64,000 nt of DNA. It comes from Shouchella clausii. GTDB lineage: Bacteria; Bacillota; Bacilli; Bacillales; Bacillaceae_D. Position 1 is the first letter of the stretch. The number at the start of each line of letters is the position of its first letter. Made by a program: the position numbers and the translations under genes. The stretch spans positions 1,364,001 through 1,428,000 of the forward strand of contig NZ_CP019985.1 of assembly GCF_002250115.1 (NCBI RefSeq). The letters run 5' to 3'. The notes below the pieces were generated by a model. That model saw nothing but the letters and a program-made list of their open reading frames with translations. It was not told where the DNA came from and did no database searches. This document shows positions 4,783 to 53,770 of this stretch, piece after piece.

Positions 4783-6138
4783 CTACTGACGCAACTGCTC
4801 GGTAATAGCTTGCACTTTTTGCTGCAATTCCTGGTCAGTGGCAAGCAGTTTTGAAATCTTTTCATGAGCATGGATGACTGTTGTATGATCGCGGCCGCCA
4901 AATTCACTGCCGATTTTAGGCAATGAAGCGTCCGTCATTTCTCGGGATAAGTACATCGCTATTTGGCGCGGGAAAGCGACTGATTTAGTTCGTTTCTTTG
5001 CTTTGAAATCTTCAAGCTTTACTTGGAAGTGTTCGCCGACAAGCTTTTGGATGTCTGTAATCGTTAGCGTTTTAGGCATCGCATTTGGAATGATGTCTTT
5101 TAATGCTTCAGCCGCCAGATCGGCATTCATATCTTGGTTAATTAAAGAAGAATAGGCAACAACACGGATGAGCGCGCCTTCTAGCTCACGAATGTTTGTA
5201 TCAATCTGATTGGCAATGTAAAGCATCACTTCATTAGGGATATCCAAGTTTTCTGCCTTCGCTTTTTTGCGCAAAATGGCAATGCGCGTTTCCAAATCAG
5301 GCGGCGTAATATCGGTAATCAAACCCCACTCAAAACGGGAGCGTAATCGGTCTTCCAAAGTCGGTATCTCTTTTGGAGGGCGGTCACTTGAAATGACGAT
5401 CTGCTTTGATTCCTCATGCAATGCATTGAATGTATGGAAAAATTCTTCCTGTGTTTGGATTTTGCCAGCAATAAATTGGATGTCGTCAATGAGCAGTACA
5501 TCAACATTGCGGTATTTGTTGCGAAAATGGACAGCTTTGTTGTCTCGGATCGCGTTAATAAATTCATTTGTAAATTTTTCAGATGACAAATACACAACTT
5601 TTGCATTTGGGTTATGTTCCATTACGTAATGGCCAATCGCGTGCATTAAATGGGTTTTTCCTAGGCCGACTCCTCCATAGATAAACAGAGGGTTATAGGC
5701 TCTCGCAGGAGCTTCCGCAACGGCTAATGAAGCAGCATGGGCAAAGCGATTTCCGGAGCCAATGACAAATGTATTAAACGTGTATTTGTCGTTAAGCATC
5801 GTTTGCGACAGTGTCGATTGGCCGGCTACATCTTTTTCCGGCGGGGTCTGAGGTGTTTGTTCAGGTAATGCTTCCTCTTCTTGGTTATGTTGAGGAATAA
5901 CAAACTTTGGCGTCAATCGCGCACCTGTAAGCTGTTCGATAATGTCGGATGTCAGCCCTGAGTAGTGGTCTTCCAGCCAGTCACGTGCAAACTCATTTGG
6001 CGCAGTGACAATGATCGTGTCGTTATTTTGGAGCGCGTTCGCTTTTGTTGCTCTTAGCCACGTTTCATAACTAGGTTTGCTTACTTTCTTTTTCATTTCT
6101 TCAAGCACTTTGTTCCACAGATCATCAATATTTTCCAA
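4783..6138 (-). CDS. dnaA: Chromosomal replication initiator DnaA
   Basis: DnaA is the AAA+ initiator that binds DnaA boxes and melts oriC. I use the TTG at 6138 (GGGAGGGG site just upstream), giving 451 residues beginning [18 protein letters not shown], the usual family start; the frame is open 18 codons further upstream. Visible parts are N-terminal domain I, an acidic/Pro linker around residues 95-120, Walker A ([10 protein letters not shown]), Walker B (LLIDDIQF), and the C-terminal domain IV with the box-binding signature [15 protein letters not shown]. It is the first gene of the leftward operon. Confidence 0.98.
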
Positions 6139-36234: not shown

Positions 36235-36714
36235 GTGAATATCACGATTCTATCCGTCGGCAAACTAAAAGAAAAATACATAAAACAAGGCATCGACGAA
36301 TACAAAAAGCGCCTAAGCGCCTACGCCAAAATCCAAGAAATCGAAGTCCCAGACGAAAAAGCACCCGAACACTTAAGCACCGAAGACATGCGCCTCGTCA
36401 AGAAAAAAGAAGGCGAACGCCTCCTCGCCAAAATAAGCGCCGACAGCTACGTCATCGCCCTGGCGATCGAAGGCAACATGAAAACAAGCGAGCAACTTGC
36501 AAAGAATATTGAACAGCTCGGCACATATGGAAAAAGCAAAATCGCCTTCGTAATCGGCGGTTCATTAGGATTGTCTAACGACGTGTACGCACGGGCAGAC
36601 GAACTGCTATCATTTTCAAAAATGACATTCCCCCACCAACTGATGAAACTCGTGCTATTTGAGCAACTGTATCGGAGTTTTCGGATTATGAGGGGGGAGC
36701 CGTATCATAAGTAG
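36235..36714 (+). CDS. rlmH: 23S rRNA (pseudouridine-1915-N3) methyltransferase RlmH
   Basis: RlmH is a SPOUT-class methyltransferase acting on assembled 70S ribosomes. The 159-residue product has [19 protein letters not shown] and [25 protein letters not shown], and the conserved end GEPYHK. The GTG start has GGAG upstream. Its codons end in A or C far more than those of most neighbours. The 3' end (GAGCCGTATCATAAGTAG) resembles the SCC attachment site in staphylococcal rlmH (orfX), and an accessory island begins directly after it. Confidence 0.97.
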
Positions 36715-37140: not shown

Positions 37141-37644
37141 TCATAAATATATTCTATGAAACTGTTTTATTTATAACAGCCTTTTTCTGTATGCTATAAA
37201 TCCCCTTTAAGTTCAGAAATGGCGAGAAGCGATTGCTTATTTAAAGATTGAATGGTTGAAATAAAGTCTCTCTGAAAAGGAAGTTTTCAATTTGCCCAAA
37301 CACCTGATTTTCAGCGTAATAGCTTTGATGTTATTAAATTTACAGGCAGATGATCATTTATTATGAAAATCAGAACAGACATAGTGATGATGTTTTCACT
37401 TTGTACAATCTTTGCGTTTATATAAGTTAGTAATGAAAGGAACCAGGCCCAGTCTGTAATCGGGACAACGTAAAATACCAGCAAAAGATGCAGATCAATA
37501 AATTTGTTTTCCAGAGCACCCCTTTCCAACCGAGAAAGCTACCGCACTATTTTGGAAGAACAGTCAGGATTCCCTGTTAATAAAATAACTCTATTAAATT
37601 GACTTTGTTACCCTTTGGTAGAAAGTCTTTTTTATAACCTTTCA

Positions 37645-37673
37645 TGAAAATCAGCCGTATGTAATGGTATAAT
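37645..37673 (+). promoter_or_regulatory. Extended -10 promoter of the helicase/restriction operon
   Basis: TGGTATAAT (37665-37673) is an extended -10 element; the -35 region is weak. It lies 36 bases upstream of the first gene. Confidence 0.6.
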
Positions 37674-37708: not shown

Positions 37709-40291
37709 ATGAATTCTTCTACTTTGGAAGATTTATTTGAAATTCATAAGTTTAAACCAAACGAGGGACAATTAGAAGCAATTAAAACATTAGAGGGTCC
37801 ACTTTTCTTAATGGCAGGTCCAGGTTCAGGTAAGACAAGAGTTCTTTTGTGGAGAACAGTAAATGCTATTGTATTCCAAAATGTCAATCCAGAAAACATT
37901 TTTTTGTCTACTTTTACGGAGAAGGCCGCAAAACAATTGAAAGACGGACTTCAGTCTATATTAGGTACAGTCACAAATATTACAGGCGTTCCATATGACA
38001 TTTCGAGAGCGTATATAGGAACTGTTCATTCACTTTGTCAGCGAATTATTGCAGATAGAAGGTTTATAAAGCAACGTTCAAGAGTAAAACCGCCAATTCT
38101 TATGGATGAATTGGACCAATATTTCTTTGTCAATTCAAATCAATTTTGGAATATGGTCGAAGAAATCCTTCATGTGAAAGAAAATGAATGGCGTTCCGAA
38201 ATGAAGAAATACTTTTCAAAGAGATCAGAGTCACGTCATGAAACTGCATTGTCACTTATTTCTGTATTCAATCGTTTTTCGGAAGAAAATCTGCAGATAG
38301 AAAGAATCATTGACCATGCGGTAAATATAAATGATGAAACATTACAGCAAATAGCCAGATTATATGAATGGTATAAACAAAGACTCCAAACAATGAATAT
38401 GGTTGATTTTGCACTATTACAACAAAGAGCTTATAGTCAATTACTTGAAAGTGAGCATGTAATTAATGAATTTGAGCATGTCGTAATTGATGAATTTCAG
38501 GACACAAATCGGATTCAAGAGCAACTGTTCTTACGATTAGCAAAAGGAAATAAAAACCTTTGTGTAGTAGGTGATGATGACCAAGCACTATATCGGTTTC
38601 GTGGAGCTACAGTAGAGAACTTTGTTCAATTTCCTCAAAGGTCTAAACTATATTTATTAACTCCTCCAAAGGAAATAAAGTTGAATATTAATTATCGTTC
38701 CAAGAAACAAATCGTAACAACTTATACCAACTTCATCGAGAAGGTCAGTTGGGTAAGAGAAGATGGGGCTGGATACTATCGCTTACATGAAAAAGATATC
38801 CAGTCACATCATCGAGATAATGATTTAGCTGTTATTACAACTACCCCATCCAAATCAGAAGACGTTGTTAAAGAAATTGCACAATTTGTTAAGAAGTTAA
38901 TTGTAGAAAAAAAGGTGGAAGATCCTAATCAGATTGCATTCTTGTTCCCTGCATTAAAAAATAATAAACATGTTCAACGCATGAAAAGAGCATTGGAAGC
39001 AGAAGGGATTAAAGTTTATGCTCCAAGGGCAGGGCGTTTTTTAGAAGTAGAAGAAGCAAAAGCGATGTTTGGAATACTTACTCAAATAGTCGGCAAACCA
39101 ACCAGACAAGCCTTTGCGGGAGCATACAAAGATTATCATGATTGGTTGGATGTTACTGAGGGAATTGCTAAGGAACTAATGGAGAAAGATGAGCGGTTAG
39201 GACGGTTTGTGCATGTTAAAATTGAAGAGCTTAATAGATGTAAAGACGACTATATTCGTCTTTTAAAGACTGTCAGTGATAATGGCTGGTCACTGAATGA
39301 TATGTATGTACCGCAAACTCATAAGCGGATTCTTTCTAATACACCGCTTATTTCACAGCAAACTCTAAGGGGTCTTGGTACAGATCGCTTAGACAAAATT
39401 ATTGAGCAAAGAATAAAAAGCGGAAAACCATTTACACTTCAATACATTCTAAATCGGGCAACATCAGTTGATTGGAATATAATGGATCTATTTTACCGTC
39501 TTTGTGGTTTTCCCTACTTTACACACATGTTCAAGTTGGCGGAAACTGGTGAAGATGAAGGACCGATTTCGAACCTCTCGATGATTTCAGAGTATTTAGC
39601 ACGCTATATGGAGCAATCCCAATCAATGCTTACTGGTTCAAGGTTAATCGAAGACCGTTTTTCGAACGACTTTTTTGGTCGCTATGTGTATGGATTATTT
39701 CGAGTAGGCGAATCAGAAGTAGAGAACGAAGAAACACCATTCCCAAAAGGACGTATACCTTTTTTAACCATCCATCAGTCGAAAGGATTGGAATTCCCCT
39801 ATGTAGTACTCGGCAGTCCTGGTAAAAGAAACTGGGGAGTGCCGAGAGTAGAGGAGCTTGTTAGGCCATTAATTGAAGCGGACAGTGAACCATTGGAAAG
39901 AATCCCTGAGTTTGATACAATGAGGCTATTTTATGTCGCTTTATCCAGGGCAGAAAATGCTTTGATTATTACCCACTTACGAGGTCCAGGTCAGGTGGTA
40001 GAACCAGCTTTCAAAAAGCTTTTTTCTGAAATGAACTACCCGATGATACCAAATATTGATGTCGATAAATTATCGGATGTACAAGTTAAGGAAGATGAGA
40101 TTCCCAAGGTTTATTCATATACCAGTGATTACCTTTTGTATTTAAAGTGCCCAAGAAATTATATGGTCTTCAAAAAGTATGGGTTTGTACCATCACGTTC
40201 CCAAACTATGCTTTTTGGAAACCTTGTCCATCAGACGATTGAAGATATTCATAATCGAATCATTTCAATGCGAGGTGAAATAGATGAGTAA
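37709..40291 (+). CDS. UvrD/AdnA-like helicase ending in the first part of a RecB-like Fe-S nuclease domain
   Basis: This is an SF1A DNA helicase of 860 residues. Motifs in order: Q-motif FKPNEGQLEAI (15-25), Walker A AGPGSGKT (36-43), Ia (LSTFTEKAAKQL), Walker B VVIDEFQDTN (from 258), motif III GDDDQALYRFRGA (near 290), motif IV/V region with IHQSKGLEFPYVVL near 690, and motif VI RLFYVALSRAEN near 735. The last 50 residues are the start of a PD-(D/E)XK nuclease: a cysteine at 814 (YLKCPRNYMVF) and His841 in FGNLVHQTIED. The catalytic Asp/Lys and remaining cysteines are in the next gene. Family proteins with both parts, such as AdnA/AdnB, are about 1050-1100 residues. GGAGG precedes the ATG. 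Confidence 0.9.
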   Translation: MNSSTLEDLFEIHKFKPNEGQLEAIKTLEGPLFLMAGPGSGKTRVLLWRTVNAIVFQNVNPENIFLSTFTEKAAKQLKDGLQSILGTVTNITGVPYDISRAYIGTVHSLCQRIIADRRFIKQRSRVKPPILMDELDQYFFVNSNQFWNMVEEILHVKENEWRSEMKKYFSKRSESRHETALSLISVFNRFSEENLQIERIIDHAVNINDETLQQIARLYEWYKQRLQTMNMVDFALLQQRAYSQLLESEHVINEFEHVVIDEFQDTNRIQEQLFLRLAKGNKNLCVVGDDDQALYRFRGATVENFVQFPQRSKLYLLTPPKEIKLNINYRSKKQIVTTYTNFIEKVSWVREDGAGYYRLHEKDIQSHHRDNDLAVITTTPSKSEDVVKEIAQFVKKLIVEKKVEDPNQIAFLFPALKNNKHVQRMKRALEAEGIKVYAPRAGRFLEVEEAKAMFGILTQIVGKPTRQAFAGAYKDYHDWLDVTEGIAKELMEKDERLGRFVHVKIEELNRCKDDYIRLLKTVSDNGWSLNDMYVPQTHKRILSNTPLISQQTLRGLGTDRLDKIIEQRIKSGKPFTLQYILNRATSVDWNIMDLFYRLCGFPYFTHMFKLAETGEDEGPISNLSMISEYLARYMEQSQSMLTGSRLIEDRFSNDFFGRYVYGLFRVGESEVENEETPFPKGRIPFLTIHQSKGLEFPYVVLGSPGKRNWGVPRVEELVRPLIEADSEPLERIPEFDTMRLFYVALSRAENALIITHLRGPGQVVEPAFKKLFSEMNYPMIPNIDVDKLSDVQVKEDEIPKVYSYTSDYLLYLKCPRNYMVFKKYGFVPSRSQTMLFGNLVHQTIEDIHNRIISMRGEIDE

Positions 40292-41105
40292 CGACGAGAT
40301 GTTGCAATTCATTGAGGAAGCATTTGAAGAGAATTACGAGCTTTTGAAATTAGAAGGTGGACACTCCTTGTCACCTCATGTAAAGAAATTAGCATTGGAG
40401 CAAGTGAAAAACTATTGGAAAAAGCTTCGAAACGTTGCGGAAAATGTCTCGGATACAGAAGTAAGACTTACCCTACCACAACAAAAAACACCAACTGGAA
40501 GACCATACACTATACAAGGTGTTGTAGACGTTGTAAAAGAAGATGAGAGAACAGTTATGTATGATATAAAAACTCATGATGCTGATTTTGTTAGAAGCAA
40601 TAAAAAGGATTATGAGGGGCAATTGAATATCTATGCTCACATTTGGCAGTCTGTTCGTGGACAAGGACTGGACGGCACTTCAATACTTGCAACTGGTGAA
40701 ACGGAGGCTTTGAGAAAAGCAAAACAACGGGCCTATCAATCAAATAATGAACGTTTTTTAGATGAAGCACTTAAGGAGTGGGACCCAGAAATACCGATCG
40801 AATTAGATCCAGGGCGTGTAGAAACTTATATTGAGTCCTTTGGTGAAGTTGTAGATATGATAGAAGAGCATTTATTCCAAGCTCCACCCGTTGACAGGTT
40901 AAAGACCAAATTGAAAGATAATAAAACATTTATCGAACATGCCTGTCGAAACTGTGACGTTCGTTTCTCCTGCAAATCGTATAAGGAATATGCCTTCACA
41001 TCAAGTCGTGCAAGAAGGGACTATATTGCTTTCTACGATGATTATGGAACGGAGCAAGAGCGGGTAGAAATAATAGAAGCAACATTAGATGAAGAAGAGG
41101 TGTAA
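40284..41105 (+). CDS. PD-(D/E)XK nuclease part with three Fe-S cysteines, split from the upstream helicase
   Basis: This 273-residue protein is the continuation of the RecB/AddB-like nuclease domain begun in the preceding gene. It contains Asp82 (GVVDVV), Asp94-Ile-Lys96 in MYDIKTHD, QLNIYAHIW as motif QxxxY, and C221-x2-C224-x5-C230 (CRNCDVRFSC), the cysteine pattern that holds a 4Fe-4S cluster in AddB/Cas4 nucleases. The fourth ligand would be Cys814 of the helicase. It overlaps that gene by eight bases (ATGAGTAA) but has its own GAGGTG site, so it is probably a separate, coupled subunit. Two bases separate it from the methylase gene. Confidence 0.85.
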   Translation: MSNDEMLQFIEEAFEENYELLKLEGGHSLSPHVKKLALEQVKNYWKKLRNVAENVSDTEVRLTLPQQKTPTGRPYTIQGVVDVVKEDERTVMYDIKTHDADFVRSNKKDYEGQLNIYAHIWQSVRGQGLDGTSILATGETEALRKAKQRAYQSNNERFLDEALKEWDPEIPIELDPGRVETYIESFGEVVDMIEEHLFQAPPVDRLKTKLKDNKTFIEHACRNCDVRFSCKSYKEYAFTSSRARRDYIAFYDDYGTEQERVEIIEATLDEEEV

Positions 41106-41107
41106 TT

Positions 41108-43111
41108 ATGTCAATTGAAGAATTAAAAAGACCAGTACGAATTGATGAAGATCGAATAGAGAAGCTGAAGGAATTGTTTCCAGAGGCTTTTGGTGATGGA
41201 AGATTGAATATAGAATTACTTAAGGAACTTATTAAGTTAAGTGATGATTTTTCAGACGCAGATTCAGGAGAATTTTTTGGGTTGCAATGGGCTGGAAAAA
41301 AAGAAGCAAGAAGGCTTAGCTCAATTCCAGCCACAGGAACACTAAATAAATCGGTTGGCGAAGGCATTAACGAAGACAACACTGATAATATTATTATCGA
41401 AGGTGATAATTTAGAAGTTTTACGGATTTTACAGAAGAGTTACTCTGGAAGAATACAAACTATTTACATTGACCCGCCGTACAATACGGATAAAGATTAT
41501 ATTTATAAAGATACATTTAAGGAACCAGTTGAAAGTTATTTGCAAAAATCAAACCAGGCAGATGAAGAGGGATTATTAACCAGTAATCCAAAGGCAAGTG
41601 GAAGATATCATGCTAATTGGTTAAATATGATGTATCCACGATTAAAGCTTGCATGGAGTCTTCTGAAACCCGATGGAATATTATGTGTGTCAATTTCAGA
41701 TATAGAAGAAGCAAACTTGAGGAAAATATTGGACGAAATATTTGGGGAAGAAAATCATATTAATACAGTTTCGGTTAAATCAAAAGTGAGTGCTGGTGCG
41801 TCTGGTGGGGGAGAGGACAAACGCTTAAAGAAAAACCTTGAGTATATCCATATGTATGCTAAAAATCTTAATGAACTTCAACCATTATCTCATTTGAACC
41901 AACGCATGGAATTAAAGAAATTGATTTCCGAGATGAGAGAGGAAGGTAGAAGTTGGAAGTACACAAGCGTATTTACAGATATGGGGGAAAGGAAAAAAAT
42001 CGCAACTACAATGGATGGGGATGGTAATCCTATTGAAATATTTTTACGGGAAAACGTAAAAAGGACAACAGTTGCCAAAATTATGAAAGAGGAAGGTTTA
42101 GATGAAGAGCAAGTATACAAAAAGTATTTGAATAATATCTTCAGGGATACCAATGCTCAATCAAGCATTCGGCAAAGGGTTATTGATGCGGTCCCTGGAT
42201 TATCAAATAATCAAGTTTACGAGATAGAATATACCCCTCGCTCAGGTAAAAATAAAGGGAATAGGATTGTTCAAACGTATGTTGGAAACACTATTCAGTT
42301 AGTAGTTTGGCTAAAAGATGTTGTAGAAGAAGTAGATGGGACCCTTATGAAATTAGAAAAACTGGGGACCCTTTGGGATGACATTGATTACAATAATGTT
42401 GGTAGGGAAGGTGGAATTCCTTATCCTAATGGAAAAAAGCCAATTGAATTAATTAAAAGATGTATTCAAATCAATGATACTGGTGATGGTATTGTCATGG
42501 ACTTTTTTGCGGGTTCAGGCTCAACAGGACATGCAGTATTAGATATGAATGCCGAAGATAATGGTTTAAGAAAGTTTATATTAGTTCAATTACCAGAGAT
42601 TCCAAAGGACTCAGAGTTCGATAGAATAACAGAACTGACAAAACAACGTTTACGAAATAGCATAGCTCAGTTAAACGAGAAAGACGGAAACGCTGAAAAA
42701 TTGGACAGAGGATTCTCTGTTTATAATTTGGATAAAACAAATATTAAGAAATGGGAAGAGTATGAAGGTGACGATATAACCGTATTAAACGAAGGTTTAG
42801 ATCTGTTTACATCGCACCCATTGAATGAGCAAACAAGTGAAATAAATATTATTACTGAATTAATGTTAAACCAGGGCTTCCCACTCGACAGTAGGATTAA
42901 AACCAATAAAGTGGACAATGAACTTTGGATTGTTGAGCATGAAGATGTTTCATTCTCTTTAGTTGTTTGCTTAGACGAGAAGTTAGATGAAAAATCAGGG
43001 GATTACCTGGCAACTAATTATGAAAAATCAACATTCATTTGCCTTGATGATGCTTTAACAAATAAGCAAAAAATCCTTCTAAGCGAAGCAATGAATGTTA
43101 AAACAATTTAA
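41108..43111 (+). CDS. mod: Type III restriction-modification system methyltransferase (Mod)
   Basis: Mod gives the type III system its sequence specificity and methylates adenine on one strand. The 667-residue protein has the catalytic motif DPPYNT (Asp122-Tyr125) before the SAM-binding motif DFFAGSGSTGH (from 465), the order of beta-class N6-adenine methylases. The variable target-recognition region (about residues 220-440) lies between them. An AGAGGTG site precedes the ATG, and the gene follows the nuclease-part gene by two bases. The recognition site cannot be read from the sequence. Confidence 0.93.
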   Translation: MSIEELKRPVRIDEDRIEKLKELFPEAFGDGRLNIELLKELIKLSDDFSDADSGEFFGLQWAGKKEARRLSSIPATGTLNKSVGEGINEDNTDNIIIEGDNLEVLRILQKSYSGRIQTIYIDPPYNTDKDYIYKDTFKEPVESYLQKSNQADEEGLLTSNPKASGRYHANWLNMMYPRLKLAWSLLKPDGILCVSISDIEEANLRKILDEIFGEENHINTVSVKSKVSAGASGGGEDKRLKKNLEYIHMYAKNLNELQPLSHLNQRMELKKLISEMREEGRSWKYTSVFTDMGERKKIATTMDGDGNPIEIFLRENVKRTTVAKIMKEEGLDEEQVYKKYLNNIFRDTNAQSSIRQRVIDAVPGLSNNQVYEIEYTPRSGKNKGNRIVQTYVGNTIQLVVWLKDVVEEVDGTLMKLEKLGTLWDDIDYNNVGREGGIPYPNGKKPIELIKRCIQINDTGDGIVMDFFAGSGSTGHAVLDMNAEDNGLRKFILVQLPEIPKDSEFDRITELTKQRLRNSIAQLNEKDGNAEKLDRGFSVYNLDKTNIKKWEEYEGDDITVLNEGLDLFTSHPLNEQTSEINIITELMLNQGFPLDSRIKTNKVDNELWIVEHEDVSFSLVVCLDEKLDEKSGDYLATNYEKSTFICLDDALTNKQKILLSEAMNVKTI

Positions 43112-43125
43112 AGGAGATGGACTAT

Positions 43126-46100
43126 ATGGCCAAGCAACTAACATTAAAATATAATGCCGATCAACAGTTCCAATTAGATGCCATCTCCAGTGTGGTTGAT
43201 TTATTTGAAGGGGTACCATATCAAGAGCAAAAAGAACTTTTGTCGGGTGTCTCAAACGATATAATTCCAAACTTTCCACCCCAGGAAATATTAGATGAAA
43301 TACTATTATTTGATAATCTCCAAATGGTACAGGAGAGGAATAACGACGAGAATCGAGGTAGTGAACTGGAGTTTTCCGATGAACTTGTGGTTGATGATGG
43401 CATGGTCTTAGAAGTAACGGGAAATGATTCTATTCGTGTACCTCACTTTACTGTTGAGATGGAAACGGGAACAGGAAAAACATATGTGTATCTACGTACA
43501 TTATATGAATTGAAAATGCGATATGGGTTTACAAAGTTTATTATCGTTGTACCCAGCGTAGCGATTTACCAAGGTGTCTTGAAATCCATAAAGACGATGA
43601 GAAACCACTTTCGCCAATTATATGATAACCAGGACATTTCTGTAATTTCATATGACGGTGATAAGATTGGTGAGTTAAATACATTTGCCAGTAATACGGA
43701 TTTAACAGTAATGGTTATGACCATTGATGCTTTTAATAAGGCAAGTAACAACATTTTTAAGCATACTGAGAAATTGTCGGGTGAGTGGAAACCATATCAG
43801 TATATCCAAGCGACAAGACCGATAATGATTTTAGATGAGGCACAGAACTTCGAAACAAGCAAGGCGAAAGAAGCTATTCGAACACTAAAACCCTTATTTG
43901 TGCTGAGATATTCTGCTACGCATCGCGATGCACCGAATATGGTATATAGTTTGACACCAATTGACGCATTTAGAAATAACCTCGTCAAACAAATTGAAGT
44001 AATTGGAGTTTCGGAATTAGGTAATTTAAATGATCAGATCCTTCGCTTAATGGAAATCAAGAGGAATCCGATTACAGCTACTGTGAGGGCCATTGTATTT
44101 GACCAAGGAGAAGCAGTTGAAAGAGATATTACATTAAGACAAGGCGAAGATTTATTTGCGAAAACAAAAAATCCTGATTACAAACAATTTGTTGTGGAAG
44201 AAATTCGATTTGGCAGACAAGAGGATGAGCAATTTATATCTTTTCAAAACGGAGTTTCTTTATCGGTGAGTGATTCAATGCTTTCTAAAGAGAGTATCTT
44301 TAGATCCCAAATTGAACGGACTATCAGTGTGCATATGCAACGTCAGCAAGCTTTGAAAGCCCAAGGAATAAAGGTGTTGTCTTTGTTTTTTATCGACAGG
44401 GTAAAGAACTATACCGCTCATGATGGATTAATAAAACGATTGTTTGATGAAAGTTTTGAAAGATTGAAGCACCATTACGATGAATATAAAGGGCTTTCTG
44501 CAAACGAGGTCAGGGAAGGTTATTTCGCAAAACCCAAAGCTGATTCACCTGAAGAAGAAGCCGTAGATACAGAAGGCAGAACAAAAGCACAAAGAGAAAT
44601 GGAGAAGCGAGCTTTTGAACTGATTATGAAGGAAAAAGAGCGTCTCTTAAGTTTTGAAGAGCCTGTTTCATTTATATTTGCTCACTCTGCTTTAAAAGAA
44701 GGATGGGATAACCCGAACGTCTTCCAAATTTGTACACTCAATCAAACAAGCTCAACTATGAAAAAGCGTCAGGAGATCGGGCGTGGATTACGATTGGCTG
44801 TTGACCAAGAAGGAAAACGAGCAGAAAATCATGACATCAATATTTTAACTGTCGTTGCAAATGAACAATATGAATCCTTTGTGTCCCGTTTACAACAGGA
44901 ATATATAGAGGACGGTACAGATGCTCCACCAACACCGAAGAAGCCAGAGCAAGGAGAAGTACATCGCAAAGAAGAAGTATACAACTCCGAAGAGTTCAAG
45001 GAATTCTGGCAAAAGTTGAATAAAAAAATGAGTTATAAAGTTGAAGTTGATACGAACAAGTTGATTGAAGAGTGTGTGGGTCGTCTAAATAATGCAAAGT
45101 TCCCATCACCTTTGATTGAAATTACAAGAGGTCGCTTTGTAATGTGTGAATACAAGCTTTCTCTTATAGCAACTGAAGGCGAACGAGCAAAACTTAAGAT
45201 TGAGATGGAAGATTCAAAAGGAGGTCGCTTTGAAAATGAATTTTATGTACAGAAAGATGACGACTTAAAGAAAGTAACAAAGGATGATCGTCTCAGAGGA
45301 TTCAAAGTGCTTCATACAGGCGAGTTGTATGGCGAACCATATATTAAATTTACCAATGAAGTAACAGTGAAAAAGTTTGAGCCATACAGATTTCATGCAG
45401 AAAGAGCAGAAAAGCCTAAGAAACAAATTGAACAAGCGGACAAGACCACCTATCCTATTCCCGATTTTATCACTCGTACTGCCAATGAAACGAAATTGAC
45501 GAAGAAGACGATTGTTGAAATTTTTAAGGGGATTAGGACGGAACAGAAGGAAAAGATTTTCTTTAATCCCGAAGGATGGATATCTGAATTCTTATCTCAA
45601 ATTAAAATTACTTTAAGTGATCATATTGTTGATAATATCGAATTTGAAATTGACGAAAATGTTGAGATCTATGATTCGGAAGAATTATTTCCAGAAATGG
45701 TGAAACAACCACAGCGTGAGTTAATAGAGGCGGGTGTCGCTGGCCTATACGACAAAGTCCAGGTAGATTCAGACGTAGAGCGTGATTTTATCCAGAACCT
45801 TGTTCGACCTGATGTTGAGAAGGATAATACAATTCTTTATTTTAAATTTCCGCCGAAGTTTAAAATATTACTGCCGAAAATTATTGGAAACTATAATCCC
45901 GACTGGGCAATCGTCAGGAAAGATGAAACCGATGATAAATTGAAGTTAGAATTGGTAAGGGAAACTAAAGGTGGACTTAAACTTGACGAGTTACGATTCC
46001 CGCAGGAAAAACGGAAAATCCTTTGTGCAATGAAATACTTTGAGAAAATTGGTGTGAACTATAGAGTTGTGACAGGGGACAGTTATGATTGGACGGAATT

Positions 46101-46137
46101 AACGGAGCCTGTGCAGTTAAGTTTGGAGACAAACTAA
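43126..46137 (+). CDS. res: Type III restriction enzyme Res subunit
   Basis: Res is the SF2 ATPase/endonuclease partner of Mod. With ATG 43126 (AAAGGAG nine bases upstream; the earlier ATG 43117 abuts that site) the protein has 1003 residues: Walker A TGTGKT (115-119 core), DEAQ box (237-240), SF2 motif VI QEIGRGLRLAVD near 550, and a C-terminal PD-(D/E)XK nuclease with Asp926 (NPDWAIV) and E946-T-K948 (RETKGG). All catalytic motifs are present, so the enzyme looks intact. It is the last gene of the four-gene operon; a hairpin follows. Confidence 0.93.
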   Translation: MAKQLTLKYNADQQFQLDAISSVVDLFEGVPYQEQKELLSGVSNDIIPNFPPQEILDEILLFDNLQMVQERNNDENRGSELEFSDELVVDDGMVLEVTGNDSIRVPHFTVEMETGTGKTYVYLRTLYELKMRYGFTKFIIVVPSVAIYQGVLKSIKTMRNHFRQLYDNQDISVISYDGDKIGELNTFASNTDLTVMVMTIDAFNKASNNIFKHTEKLSGEWKPYQYIQATRPIMILDEAQNFETSKAKEAIRTLKPLFVLRYSATHRDAPNMVYSLTPIDAFRNNLVKQIEVIGVSELGNLNDQILRLMEIKRNPITATVRAIVFDQGEAVERDITLRQGEDLFAKTKNPDYKQFVVEEIRFGRQEDEQFISFQNGVSLSVSDSMLSKESIFRSQIERTISVHMQRQQALKAQGIKVLSLFFIDRVKNYTAHDGLIKRLFDESFERLKHHYDEYKGLSANEVREGYFAKPKADSPEEEAVDTEGRTKAQREMEKRAFELIMKEKERLLSFEEPVSFIFAHSALKEGWDNPNVFQICTLNQTSSTMKKRQEIGRGLRLAVDQEGKRAENHDINILTVVANEQYESFVSRLQQEYIEDGTDAPPTPKKPEQGEVHRKEEVYNSEEFKEFWQKLNKKMSYKVEVDTNKLIEECVGRLNNAKFPSPLIEITRGRFVMCEYKLSLIATEGERAKLKIEMEDSKGGRFENEFYVQKDDDLKKVTKDDRLRGFKVLHTGELYGEPYIKFTNEVTVKKFEPYRFHAERAEKPKKQIEQADKTTYPIPDFITRTANETKLTKKTIVEIFKGIRTEQKEKIFFNPEGWISEFLSQIKITLSDHIVDNIEFEIDENVEIYDSEELFPEMVKQPQRELIEAGVAGLYDKVQVDSDVERDFIQNLVRPDVEKDNTILYFKFPPKFKILLPKIIGNYNPDWAIVRKDETDDKLKLELVRETKGGLKLDELRFPQEKRKILCAMKYFEKIGVNYRVVTGDSYDWTELTEPVQLSLETN

Positions 46138-47295: not shown

Positions 47296-48087
47296 ATGTA
47301 TCAACATGAAGATCGTATAAAAGTGATGTCAGAGATTGAAAACTTCACAAGGTCAATAAACGGTATTCAAGGATTATTACTGGTTGGCTCTGGTTCAACT
47401 GGCTTTAGAGATCAGTATTCGGATCTTGATTTACTTGTCGTAGTGGAAAATCCCGAAAATGTAGTTGATATTAATGAGCAAATTAGAGGATTTTTACAAT
47501 CAAGGTTTTGTGTTCTGAAAGAGAAAGTATACCAGCATGAAAAGGATATTTTCGTTACTTGTTTCTTTTTTGAAAACTATCTTGAGTTGGATTTAGGTGT
47601 ATGGTCATTTAATAAACTTAGAGCAACAAAGCCAAATTGGATTGTTGTTTTTGATCGAGAAGGGATCCTTTCCGATAAACTAAATGACTCTTTAAATAAA
47701 CTAAATCATAGGGATATGGATGAAGCAATAAATGATTCATTAAGTTTTATTTGGCAATTTTTTAGAAGCGCAGTTGTAGCGTTAAAAAGAGGCCATCTTA
47801 TTAAAGCGCTAAAAGATATTGACTTTATACGAAATCAAATTATTGAGCTGATTTGCTTGCGAAACAACATTAACTATGATTTTGACAAATCTATTGATCA
47901 AATTGATAGTTATCATGTTAGCAGCCTTAAAAAAACTTATGAAGTGAAAATGGACTATACCAGTATAAAGAAAGTCCTTTTTGATGTGATGAATATCTAC
48001 TTTGGTGTTATGGATATAAAAGAGAATGATGTTGTAGAAAAAAATAGACGAATGATCCATAAATTCTTAGAAGACGAGCTTATCTAA
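47296..48087 (+). CDS. Nucleotidyltransferase-domain protein
   Basis: This 263-residue protein has the polymerase-beta-type nucleotidyltransferase motif LLVGSGSTGFRDQYSDLDLLVV (Gly-Ser followed by Asp-x-Asp; residues about 28-49) and a third carboxylate in LELDLGVWSF near 98. The remaining two thirds is helical, as in streptomycin/kanamycin adenylyltransferase-like proteins. It could modify a small molecule or tRNA/protein; the substrate is unknown. AAAGGAG is found upstream. It lies alone between non-coding stretches in the island. Confidence 0.75.
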   Translation: MYQHEDRIKVMSEIENFTRSINGIQGLLLVGSGSTGFRDQYSDLDLLVVVENPENVVDINEQIRGFLQSRFCVLKEKVYQHEKDIFVTCFFFENYLELDLGVWSFNKLRATKPNWIVVFDREGILSDKLNDSLNKLNHRDMDEAINDSLSFIWQFFRSAVVALKRGHLIKALKDIDFIRNQIIELICLRNNINYDFDKSIDQIDSYHVSSLKKTYEVKMDYTSIKKVLFDVMNIYFGVMDIKENDVVEKNRRMIHKFLEDELI

Positions 48088-48207: not shown

Positions 48208-49054
48208 ATGAGCAAAAAAATATGGGACCCTAGTGTTTTGGATGAGTATGAACTTGATCCCTTAGAAAACGACACAGTCAAGTTTGTGGAAAACCATTTT
48301 CAAGTGAAGTTACCGCCATCCTACGTGAACGTGTTAAAAGAACAGAACGGTGGATACTTATCACGAAACAAATATCCTTAAACATGATAATGAAGATGAA
48401 GACATAGAAATTGACCATTTATTAGGATTGAGCATTAAAAACAATGAAGGCATTTTGCAATCAGAGTATTTCATTAATGAATGGGGGCTTCCACAACATT
48501 TAATTCTGATCAGTGGTGACGGTCACGGCTGGGTTTGTTTAGATTATCGATCAGTTAATGAAAACCCTCCGGTTATTTTCATTGACGTCGAAGTGGAAAA
48601 GGAACACCGTTTAGCTGATTCATTTGCGGAATTCATAAACAACCTTTATCAAGATGAGACCTCAAAAGCGTCATTTATTGACGACGTTTTTGAAGATGAC
48701 CAAACAGAGTTTACGTATAAAGAAGGGGAAAAAGCATTTTCTGGCAACAATGTAAGAAAGATTAGTTTTGCTCTTCTTCACTTTACCAATACAGATAGTG
48801 ATACAAATTGGTTTTTAAAGCAATTAAAGAAACTAACAAATAAAAAGAACGAATTTATTGTTCACGATGCGGCAGAAGCGCTTTACCATATTGTTAATGA
48901 CCGGTATGGAAAAGATAAAGATGTAGATAGCAATTTAATTCAAGAAGTTATCGACAAACTTAAATCTCATTCTAGTGCTACAGTTAATAATTATGCTAGG
49001 AAGATACAGAGACTATTTGACGAGAATAAGAATTTTAGCTGTCCTTCTCTGTAA
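48208..49054 (+). pseudogene. SMI1/KNR4 (SUKH) family gene with a frameshift
   Basis: The first frame (48208-48381; GGAGAGG upstream) encodes the SUKH start: VKFVENHFQVKLPPSYVNVL then KEQNGGYL, and stops. The next frame (+1), open from about 48350 to 49054, continues with LLGLSIKNNEGI, EWGLPQHLILISGDGHGWVCLDY and a helical C-terminal extension. Together they match a SUKH immunity-type protein of about 280 residues, with one frame change between 48340 and 48380. SUKH proteins commonly neutralise polymorphic toxins, but no toxin gene is seen nearby. If the frameshift is an assembly error, the gene would be intact. Confidence 0.65.
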
Positions 49055-52780: not shown

Positions 52781-53770
52781 ATGACAAGAAAACAGTGGTT
52801 ATGGCCTGTTGCAGCTATTGCCCTTGTTTTAACTGGCTGCAACGTTGGGCATGCAAATGAAGGCGAGCCGAAAAAGCTACGTCTTGGCCATATTCAAAGT
52901 GAGTCGAATGCGTGGCACAAAGGCTCACTCAAATTTGCCGAATTGGTGCATGAAAAAACAGGCGGCTCTGTCAAGGTAGAGGTTTATCCAAGCTCTACTC
53001 TTGGCGCCGACCGCGACTTGGTTGAAGGCATGCAAATTGGCTCTGTTGATTTTGCTTTAGTAGCTGGCGTAATGTCTAACTTTTATGAACCCTATTCGAT
53101 CTTAGAGCTCCCTTATCTATTCGAAGATTTGAATCATTTAGAGGAATTTGTCTATGGAGAAGATGGTAAGCGATTGCAAGAAGAGACGTTAGAAGCAACA
53201 GGGGTAAGAGGGCTGGAGTTTTGGCTCCGTGGAGCACGGTAGCTAACAACCAATAAGCTTGTGGAGTCACCTGAAGACCTTCGCGGCGTAAAAATTCGTG
53301 TACCAAACATTGAGGCGTCTGTAGAAGGCTGGCAGGCAATGGGGGCAAGCCCGACACCGATGAACTTTGGTGAAGTGTATTCTTCTTTGCAGACAGGCGT
53401 GATTGACGCGCAAGAAAATCCAATTGAGTTCACCGCAAGTGCGAGAATTCATGAAGTCCAAGACTATCTTGTAATGACGGACCACGTTTTTGGTTATGTG
53501 CAATTATTAATGAGTGACAAAACGTACCAAGAGTTAACAGAGGACGAACAGCAAGCGGTCATGGAAGCAGCTGAAGAAGCGCGTATGTACCAAAATGAAA
53601 TCGTTTCCGCGGAAGAAGAGAGCGCTTTGCAAATGATGCTCGATGAAGGTGTCGAGCAAATCGAAGTCGATCAAGAGCCGTTTCGTGAGTCTGTTCAACG
53701 TGTCAATGAGAGATTAGCTGATAAATACGGGAGAGAACTTTACGACACGATCCAAGGTATGAGGGAGTAA
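52781..53770 (+). pseudogene. dctP: TRAP transporter solute-binding protein DctP, interrupted by an in-frame TAG
   Basis: DctP binds the substrate outside the membrane for a TRAP carrier. The protein starts with a lipoprotein signal peptide (lipobox VLTGC) and DctP features (LRLGHIQSESNAWHKGSLKF, GVMSNFYEPYSILELPYLF, FWLRGAR). A TAG at 53240-53242 stands where family members have Gln (RGARQLTTNK); the same frame then continues LTTNKLVESPEDLRGVKIR to 53770, giving 329 residues in total. A single C-to-T change explains it. dctQ and dctM downstream are intact, so the inactivation is recent, a sequencing error, or tolerated by suppression. Confidence 0.88.

Follow-up and report, generated by a model that had tools for sequence, protein, structure and literature searches.

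Two overlapping genes carry the two parts of one nuclease domain

The DNA analyzed here (hereafter the window) is a stretch of 64,000 nucleotides, positions 1364001-1428000 of the single-contig 4.5-Mb genome of Shouchella clausii, and the element in question is a set of four genes (A, B, Mod and Res) that all lie on the + strand, almost without gaps. The first two code for a UvrD-type superfamily 1 (SF1) helicase and a small protein with the catalytic core of a PD-(D/E)XK nuclease, and the last two for the subunits of a type III restriction-modification (R-M) system (see below). The features of A and B are as follows:

37709..40291, + strand: gene A, UvrD-type SF1 helicase of 860 amino acids (aa) (Pfam UvrD-helicase, 1.3e-58; UvrD_C, 1.6e-24)
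40148..40150, + strand: codon of Cys814 of A, the first presumed iron-sulfur (Fe-S) ligand (C in 39/39 A rows)
40217..40231, + strand: GxxxH motif of A, GNLVH at residues 837-841 (G837...H841; G and H in 39/39 A rows)
40272..40277, + strand: GAGGTG in the sequence, a ribosome-binding-like site for B within the end of A
40284..41105, + strand: gene B, 273 aa, the rest of the nuclease domain with its catalytic core and three cysteines (PDDEXK_1 positions 83-247, 35.6 bits)
40527..40571, + strand: catalytic D82 and D94-I95-K96 of B (invariant in 40/40 B rows)
40620..40634, + strand: Q113xxxY117 motif of B (invariant in 40/40 B rows)
40944..40973, + strand: C221-x2-C224-x5-C230 of B, three presumed Fe-S ligands (invariant in 40/40 B rows)

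The last ~55 residues of A correspond to the N-terminal part of an iron-staple-like PD-(D/E)XK nuclease domain; A and B match consecutive stretches of a single Pfam nuclease model (the A stretch weakly), and both halves are homologous in sequence to one nuclease domain. As the ends of this domain lie on two proteins, a cluster, if formed, must bridge A and B. The genes overlap by 8 nt (ATGAGTAA, 40284-40291), with B in the +1 frame of A. An earlier reading of this DNA (the original prediction) had named the two open reading frames (ORFs) with their coordinates, the residues C814, H841, D82, D94-x-K96, QxxxY and C221/C224/C230, the 8-nt overlap, the +1 frame of B and the GAGGTG site, and all of these are present as named.

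Identities to the homologous locus L002 at codon positions 1/2/3 are 0.84/0.91/0.49 for A and 0.86/0.90/0.50 for B, and the divergence at the third codon position in both ORFs indicates that A and B are under coding constraint. The sequence matches of A in the PDB are best to PcrA/UvrD, followed by AddA, 6ppr_B (which we take to be AdnB) and RecB. PDB sequence searches with B, with a composite A-B alignment (from which A columns were mostly dropped) and with the nuclease part of a fused relative (see below) returned chance-level matches only.

The split is conserved across homologous loci

A genome scan with B yielded 41 loci (L002-L042), of which 40 hold both parts, as L040 starts inside B. 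The break falls at the same place in all 40: the match to A reaches window residue 852-860, its frame stops at most 19 codons beyond, and B is a separate ORF. The two-gene organization is therefore conserved, and the homologue search that the original prediction had proposed finds the split at one and the same place in every locus with both parts.

Spacing and frame vary around this constant break. With the window included (41 loci), B starts -4 nt from the A stop in 18 loci, -8 in 9, -1 in 8 and 0 in 2, with -11, +2, +25 and +708 nt occurring once each, and its reading frame relative to that of A is 2 in 27, 1 in 11 and 0 in 3. By rule, B was taken to begin at the first ATG/GTG/TTG downstream of a point 40 nt ahead of where the A stop codon ends, except for nine loci in which its start was set by hand (the window, L002, L003, L005, L010, L017, L028, L029 and L037); an alternative start in L005 would give +684 instead of +708. 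This locus carries a stand-alone 95-aa GIY-YIG gene (5482-5769) between A and B. Since the break is constant, spacing and frames vary and another gene can lie between the two, a sequencing error or a conserved recoding is excluded as the common cause of the split. The same evidence, with its 40/40 breaks and three frame relations, bears out the preference of the original prediction for two coupled genes over recoding. Shine-Dalgarno (SD)-like 4-mers lie ahead of B in 24/41 loci, versus 175/1854 ATGs within A genes. The GIY-YIG gene of L005 is perhaps a mobile endonuclease that used the A/B gene boundary.

In L008 and L027, B lies in frame directly after the TAA of A. The pieces of L027 taken apart score 16.9 bits (PDDEXK_1 9-56) and 35.0 bits (85-246), and reading through the TAA gives one domain of 58.9 bits over PDDEXK_1 9-246; the L008 composite scores 59.7 bits.

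Residue conservation was assessed in an alignment of 39 A rows (without L010 and L017, whose A is cut by the contig start, and without L040) and one of 40 B rows (without L040 and L042, whose B is incomplete). Identical in all A rows are C814, P815, R816, Y818, G837, H841, D846 and H848, and in all B rows E59, D82, D94, I95, K96, Q113, Y117, C221, C224 and C230. Invariant positions make up 17 of 61 in A residues 800-860 versus 143 of 860 over the whole of A. Exactly three cysteines are present in 17 of the 40 B proteins, that of the window among them, so that a fourth cysteine ligand there must come from another chain.

The split loci come from isolates of Bacillota, Cyanobacteriota and Bacteroidota and from metagenome-assembled genomes (MAGs) with further phylum labels. 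Ureibacillus xyleni (L002) and Algoriphagus formosus (L016) are among the isolates. L025 (MAG label Diapherotrites) adjoins L042 (Anaerolineales) in the helicase tree and L009 (Planctomycetaceae label) adjoins Nodosilinea; misbinning or transfer may account for each.

Whole-genome profile searches (299, 9, 292, 345, 301, 41 and 348 genomes, some searched twice, at E limits of 1e-6 or 1e-4) extended this picture. All matches above 340 bits are short frames of 273-438 aa, seven of them in additional genomes, and in all seven B has its own reading frame after A, with two copies damaged (see below). The remaining matches score below 60 bits: eleven lie in frames of 516-1520 aa, and another is an 81-aa piece in G299 that contains a stop. 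In six of the eleven (L046, L077, L078, L080, L081 and L087) A and B both match within one frame; among the other five the resemblance, where examined, is distant. None of the 36 stretches of viral contigs that fit a pattern codes for a relative of B; phages gave no match; and plasmids gave one weak match to B (27%, E 8e-9), in a record also matched full-length by the fused query.

Single-chain relatives, a probable sister group

A weak match (G255) with the same A-B order in a 986-aa open frame, which adjoins a Mod, led to a fused family on plasmids, where 22 records matched and 20 of them align with 80% or more of the query at a single place. Eleven fused-type records were fetched, ten from the plasmid search and one via the B search; in three (L051, L061 and L062) the annotation shows two coding sequences, separated within the helicase part and not at the A/B split. 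The nine that were aligned (eight from plasmids and L052) are single chains of 956-986 aa with the same four cysteines (C...Cx2Cx5C) and the same GxxxH, D, DxK and QxxxY motifs as the A-B pair, and the position of the A/B split maps to the linker after their GxxxH helix. Two single-chain relatives score 81.4 and 78.6 bits against PDDEXK_1 over positions 5-247. When a fused relative was compared by hhalign with the two-part alignment (E 8.7e-17), the match took in the GxxxH helix of A as well as B up to and including its cysteines, with the columns around C814 left unaligned.

As outgroup, the helicase tree has three UvrD-type proteins encoded in the window's genome, all on very long branches, and its nine fused rows are a subset of our choosing from the records found. 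It places 41 split rows on one side (Shimodaira-Hasegawa-like approximate likelihood ratio test, SH-aLRT, 99) and the nine fused rows on another (99), as sister groups under this rooting. A larger tree with 45 split and 15 fused rows, one of the latter (L080) translated with three stops in the stretch taken, retains the split side (99.5), and the unity of the fused rows is unsupported in it (24). The split helicases thus form one clade, for which one split event suffices. Because RecB, AddA/AddB and AdnA/AdnB are single chains, the fused state is, by analogy, presumably older than the split state. The original prediction had allowed that all homologues might prove to be single-chain; what we find is that single-chain relatives exist beside the split ones, probably as a sister group of 956-986-aa fusions.

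The operon, its genomic setting and co-inheritance

The remaining features of the operon are:

37644..37673, + strand: promoter-like ATGAAA-18-TATAAT with TG before the second hexamer, 5' of gene A (consensus scan)
41108..43111, + strand: type III Mod methyltransferase, 2 nt past B (PADLOC MTase_III, 6.6e-134; Pfam N6_N4_Mtase, 1.3e-29)
43117..46137, + strand: type III Res helicase-endonuclease, 5 nt past Mod (PADLOC REase_III, 4.5e-200; Pfam RE_endonuc and ResIII)

The promoter consensus scan of the region returned 40 sites versus a mean of 31.9 in shuffles, which lends the promoter-like sequence weak support. The Res of the window scores 268.1 bits against the NCBIfam equivalog NF012027 and does not reach its cut-off of 564.

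Between 36 and 52 kb of the window the G+C content is 0.36-0.40, versus 0.46-0.49 in the preceding 16 kb. This low-GC stretch sits downstream of rlmH (Pfam SPOUT_MTase), and the R-M island starts after the rlmH end (window 36697-36714). The staphylococcal cassette chromosome (SCC) elements of staphylococci insert at the rlmH end. A second rlmH end in the window was not found above chance, with only short imperfect repeats otherwise; at up to three mismatches, 4 matches (the rlmH end itself counted) were obtained versus 1.04 expected, and 3 of 100 shuffles reach 4. When the B profile was run against 41 genomes of the same family (13 of the same genus, the window's own included), a strong match was found in the window's genome only, and the sole other match (G1254) is weak and lies inside a 1068-aa frame. 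This suggests horizontal acquisition. Past Res, the low-GC stretch encodes a nucleotidyltransferase-domain protein (47296-48087) and a SUKH (SMI1/KNR4) family protein (48350-49054). Further on, the gene of a tripartite ATP-independent periplasmic (TRAP)-type DctP solute-binding protein (52781-53770) is cut by an in-frame TAG at 53240-53242; Pfam DctP is matched at positions 1-119 upstream of this stop and at 129-281 downstream.

The A-B pair is associated with type III Mod/Res: among L002-L042, tblastn detects Mod in 34/41 loci and a window-type Res in 28/41, several others being cut by contig ends. Of the 12 fused-type loci examined, ten have Mod and none a window-type Res (tblastn, E 1e-5). 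Other partners also occur. Genes for HerA and NurA lie directly upstream of A-B in L011, L019, L025, L032, L038, L041, L042, L092 and L093, those of L032 being only 30% and 21% identical. These loci are mostly labelled Chloroflexota, and their layout suggests a larger end-processing module. BREX-like loci with the helicase-nuclease are represented by L054, with BrxC, PglXI and PglZ after B, and L053, with BrxC; the B of L053 is longer (421 aa) and shows a weak match to a second PD-(D/E)XK model. A complete type I set (HsdM, HsdS and HsdR; L092 7709-14122) follows A-B in L092, where HerA and NurA precede it, and L091 has two N6-methylase genes of HsdM type and L039 one HsdM. Extra genes near Mod include those for GmrSD_N proteins between B and Mod (L013 6834-8798, L020 4621-6606 and L022 6827-8815), a phospholipase D (PLD) family nuclease at the same place (L016 7270-8061) and a Schlafen AlbA_2 protein with an ATPase between Mod and Res (L041 8806-10509).

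A mirror-tree test on the 27 loci in which all four genes are long enough (500 permutations) gave distance correlations of 0.937 for A-B, 0.929 for A-Res and 0.913 for B-Res, and of 0.777 for A-Mod, 0.746 for B-Mod and 0.725 for Mod-Res, with a permuted maximum for any pair of 0.25. Thus A, B and Res travel together and Mod is freer, linkage alone explaining part of this. Mod carries target recognition in type III R-M.

Comparison with known systems

The single-chain relatives are the UvrD-Cas4 fusion of Hudaiberdiev et al. 2017, described in the relevant section of that paper as a UvrD-type helicase with a pfam12705 Cas4-like nuclease, encoded mostly beside type III Mod/Res (PMC5704561). The original prediction had likened the helicase to AdnA; that kinship did not hold up, as the nearest kin found are these fusions of type III R-M loci. 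They share with A-B the UvrD-like SF1 helicase, the four cysteines, the GxxxH, D, DxK and QxxxY motifs and the Mod/Res neighbourhood, and differ in being one chain of 956-986 aa on a separate side of the tree, whereas A-B consists of two chains of 860 and 273 aa and its pfam12705 domain is complete only across both. The same section also describes operons, mostly from Clostridiales, in which UvrD and a Cas4-like protein are encoded by different genes, as being of independent origin and in a context not indicative of defense (PMC5704561). Like A-B, these have separate helicase and nuclease genes, and their products may be the same as the A-B pair; the section leaves unstated whether the Cas4-like protein is complete.

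Passages of PMC7430649 characterize iron-staple nucleases by four strictly conserved cysteines whose pattern extends over the entire domain, and passages of PMC3466216 call the cluster of AddB essential for structural integrity. AddB, Cas4, Dna2 and Bad are, as far as these passages describe them, RecB-type nucleases with four cysteines across the domain, as in A-B, but with all four in one chain, whereas the C...Cx2Cx5C of A-B is spread over two. A-B further resembles AddAB, RecBCD and AdnAB in coupling an SF1 motor to a RecB-family nuclease. A second helicase-like partner of the AddB type is absent from the operon, the other genes of which are B, Mod and Res.

Several assignments were set aside. 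The addA_Gpos score of A is 120.8 bits, with a cut-off of 707.65, which speaks against AddAB. Gabija (GajAB) was rejected as no GajA partner lies beside A, its neighbours being B, Mod and Res; A does hit GajB models (best 5e-42), with a DRT helicase model ranking ahead of them (1.3e-51). AdnAB was dropped solely because the fused UvrD-Cas4 relatives are closer. As a separate observation, the host has a compact AddAB-like pair (L090 1893-4595 and 4561-7152, at ~3.08 Mb in its genome), in which the AddB-like protein has 900 aa, a full PDDEXK_1 and 39.1 bits to addB_Gpos, far below the cut-off, and the AddA-like helicase has 863 aa and no nuclease domain detected by Pfam. Among the open-access papers listed by literature searches, we recognized none as describing a split helicase-nuclease of the A-B kind, and passages of PMC2292703 contain nothing about the pair.

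Interpretation and rival explanations

The explanation that we consider likely is that A and B are two subunits of one helicase-nuclease, which is held together by an Fe-S staple between them and serves the type III R-M operon. A single protein of ~1130 aa, its gene broken in the window by a sequencing error or a recent frameshift, would fit the single-chain relatives of 956-986 aa and the isolated frameshifts seen in the family (L091 and L076); nevertheless, the homologues refute it, with the identical place of the break in 40/40 loci under differing overlaps and frames, and together with the ribosome-binding-like site before B in the window and the SD-like 4-mers elsewhere they reduce its chances to practically nil. 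Programmed recoding, by +1 frameshift or stop read-through, could yield a fused A-B chain from the 8-nt overlap of the window or from the in-frame arrangement of L008 and L027. We regard it as highly improbable given that the frame relations vary (27/11/3) and that in one locus 708 nt and another gene separate A from B; no common slippery site was noticed, though no scan aimed at one was made. A minor fused A-B product may still be made in single species.

It is also conceivable that A is a helicase on its own with a relic nuclease end and B a free nuclease with another partner, such as Res, as the distance correlations of A-Res and B-Res are about equal to that of A-B. We hold this to be quite unlikely, for the end of A is strongly conserved (eight residues in 39/39 rows and an excess of invariant positions over the rest of A) and B is without the residues that A supplies. 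Somewhat less unlikely, though still improbable, is that A and B interact and the four cysteines bind zinc, or that the three cysteines of B alone bind a metal. The identity of the metal is unreadable from sequence, and a DUF3799 structure with the same four-cysteine arrangement holding zinc is reported in PMC3466216; a three-cysteine site is disfavoured by the C...Cx2Cx5C spacing common to nine fused relatives and by C814 in 39/39 rows, and the bound metal may yet be zinc.

Several observations weigh against the two-subunit explanation or parts of it. The end of A matches Pfam PDDEXK_1 (PF12705) at positions 7-50 with 16.7 bits, below the cut-off of 22, and the hhalign match of the two-part alignment to the host AddB-like protein is weak (probability 28.5, E 6e-4). 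The tree leaves the order of the fused and split states unsettled and has very long outgroup branches. Two copies are damaged: in L091 the A frame breaks ahead of the GxxxH motif, and in L076 A lies in several frames and B has a TGA. In seven of the 41 loci (L008, L009, L011, L018, L024, L039 and L042) tblastn finds no Mod, albeit L042 ends inside B and L009 has just 1.5 kb downstream. Linkage by itself would lead A and B to be inherited together. Finally, the physical A-B complex and the inter-chain cluster, like the nuclease activity and the role of the pair, are deduced from sequence, which counts above all against the contact and the cluster.

On the two-subunit explanation, the probable history is a single gene fission, in the loop that follows the GxxxH helix of a UvrD-Cas4-type single chain, after which the split form would have spread horizontally. 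B would be translated, by coupled translation, from its own start inside or beside the end of A and dock on that end to complete the active site, with the four conserved cysteines predicted to hold an Fe-S cluster across the interface that clamps the pair together. A-B might then load onto DNA ends or single-stranded DNA that Res, or elsewhere a type I or BREX-like partner, leaves behind, and the motor would feed single strands of the cut, unmodified DNA into the completed active site, so that the DNA of the invader would be degraded and Res helped. As a tentative extension, which we think possible but doubtful, the staple could act as a latch: the nuclease would be active only with B clamped onto the helicase, iron-sulfur supply or redox state would arm or disarm it, and the two-piece module could be plugged into type III, type I and BREX-like systems, with or without HerA-NurA.

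If the two-subunit explanation is true, a two-gene helicase-nuclease that is easily mistaken for two unrelated proteins travels with type III R-M loci, and the same module is also found occasionally with type I R-M and BREX-like loci. The distribution of the staple ligands over two proteins would moreover offer a natural way of testing whether the cluster of AddB, Cas4 and Dna2 holds the fold, clamps the assembly or acts as a sensor.

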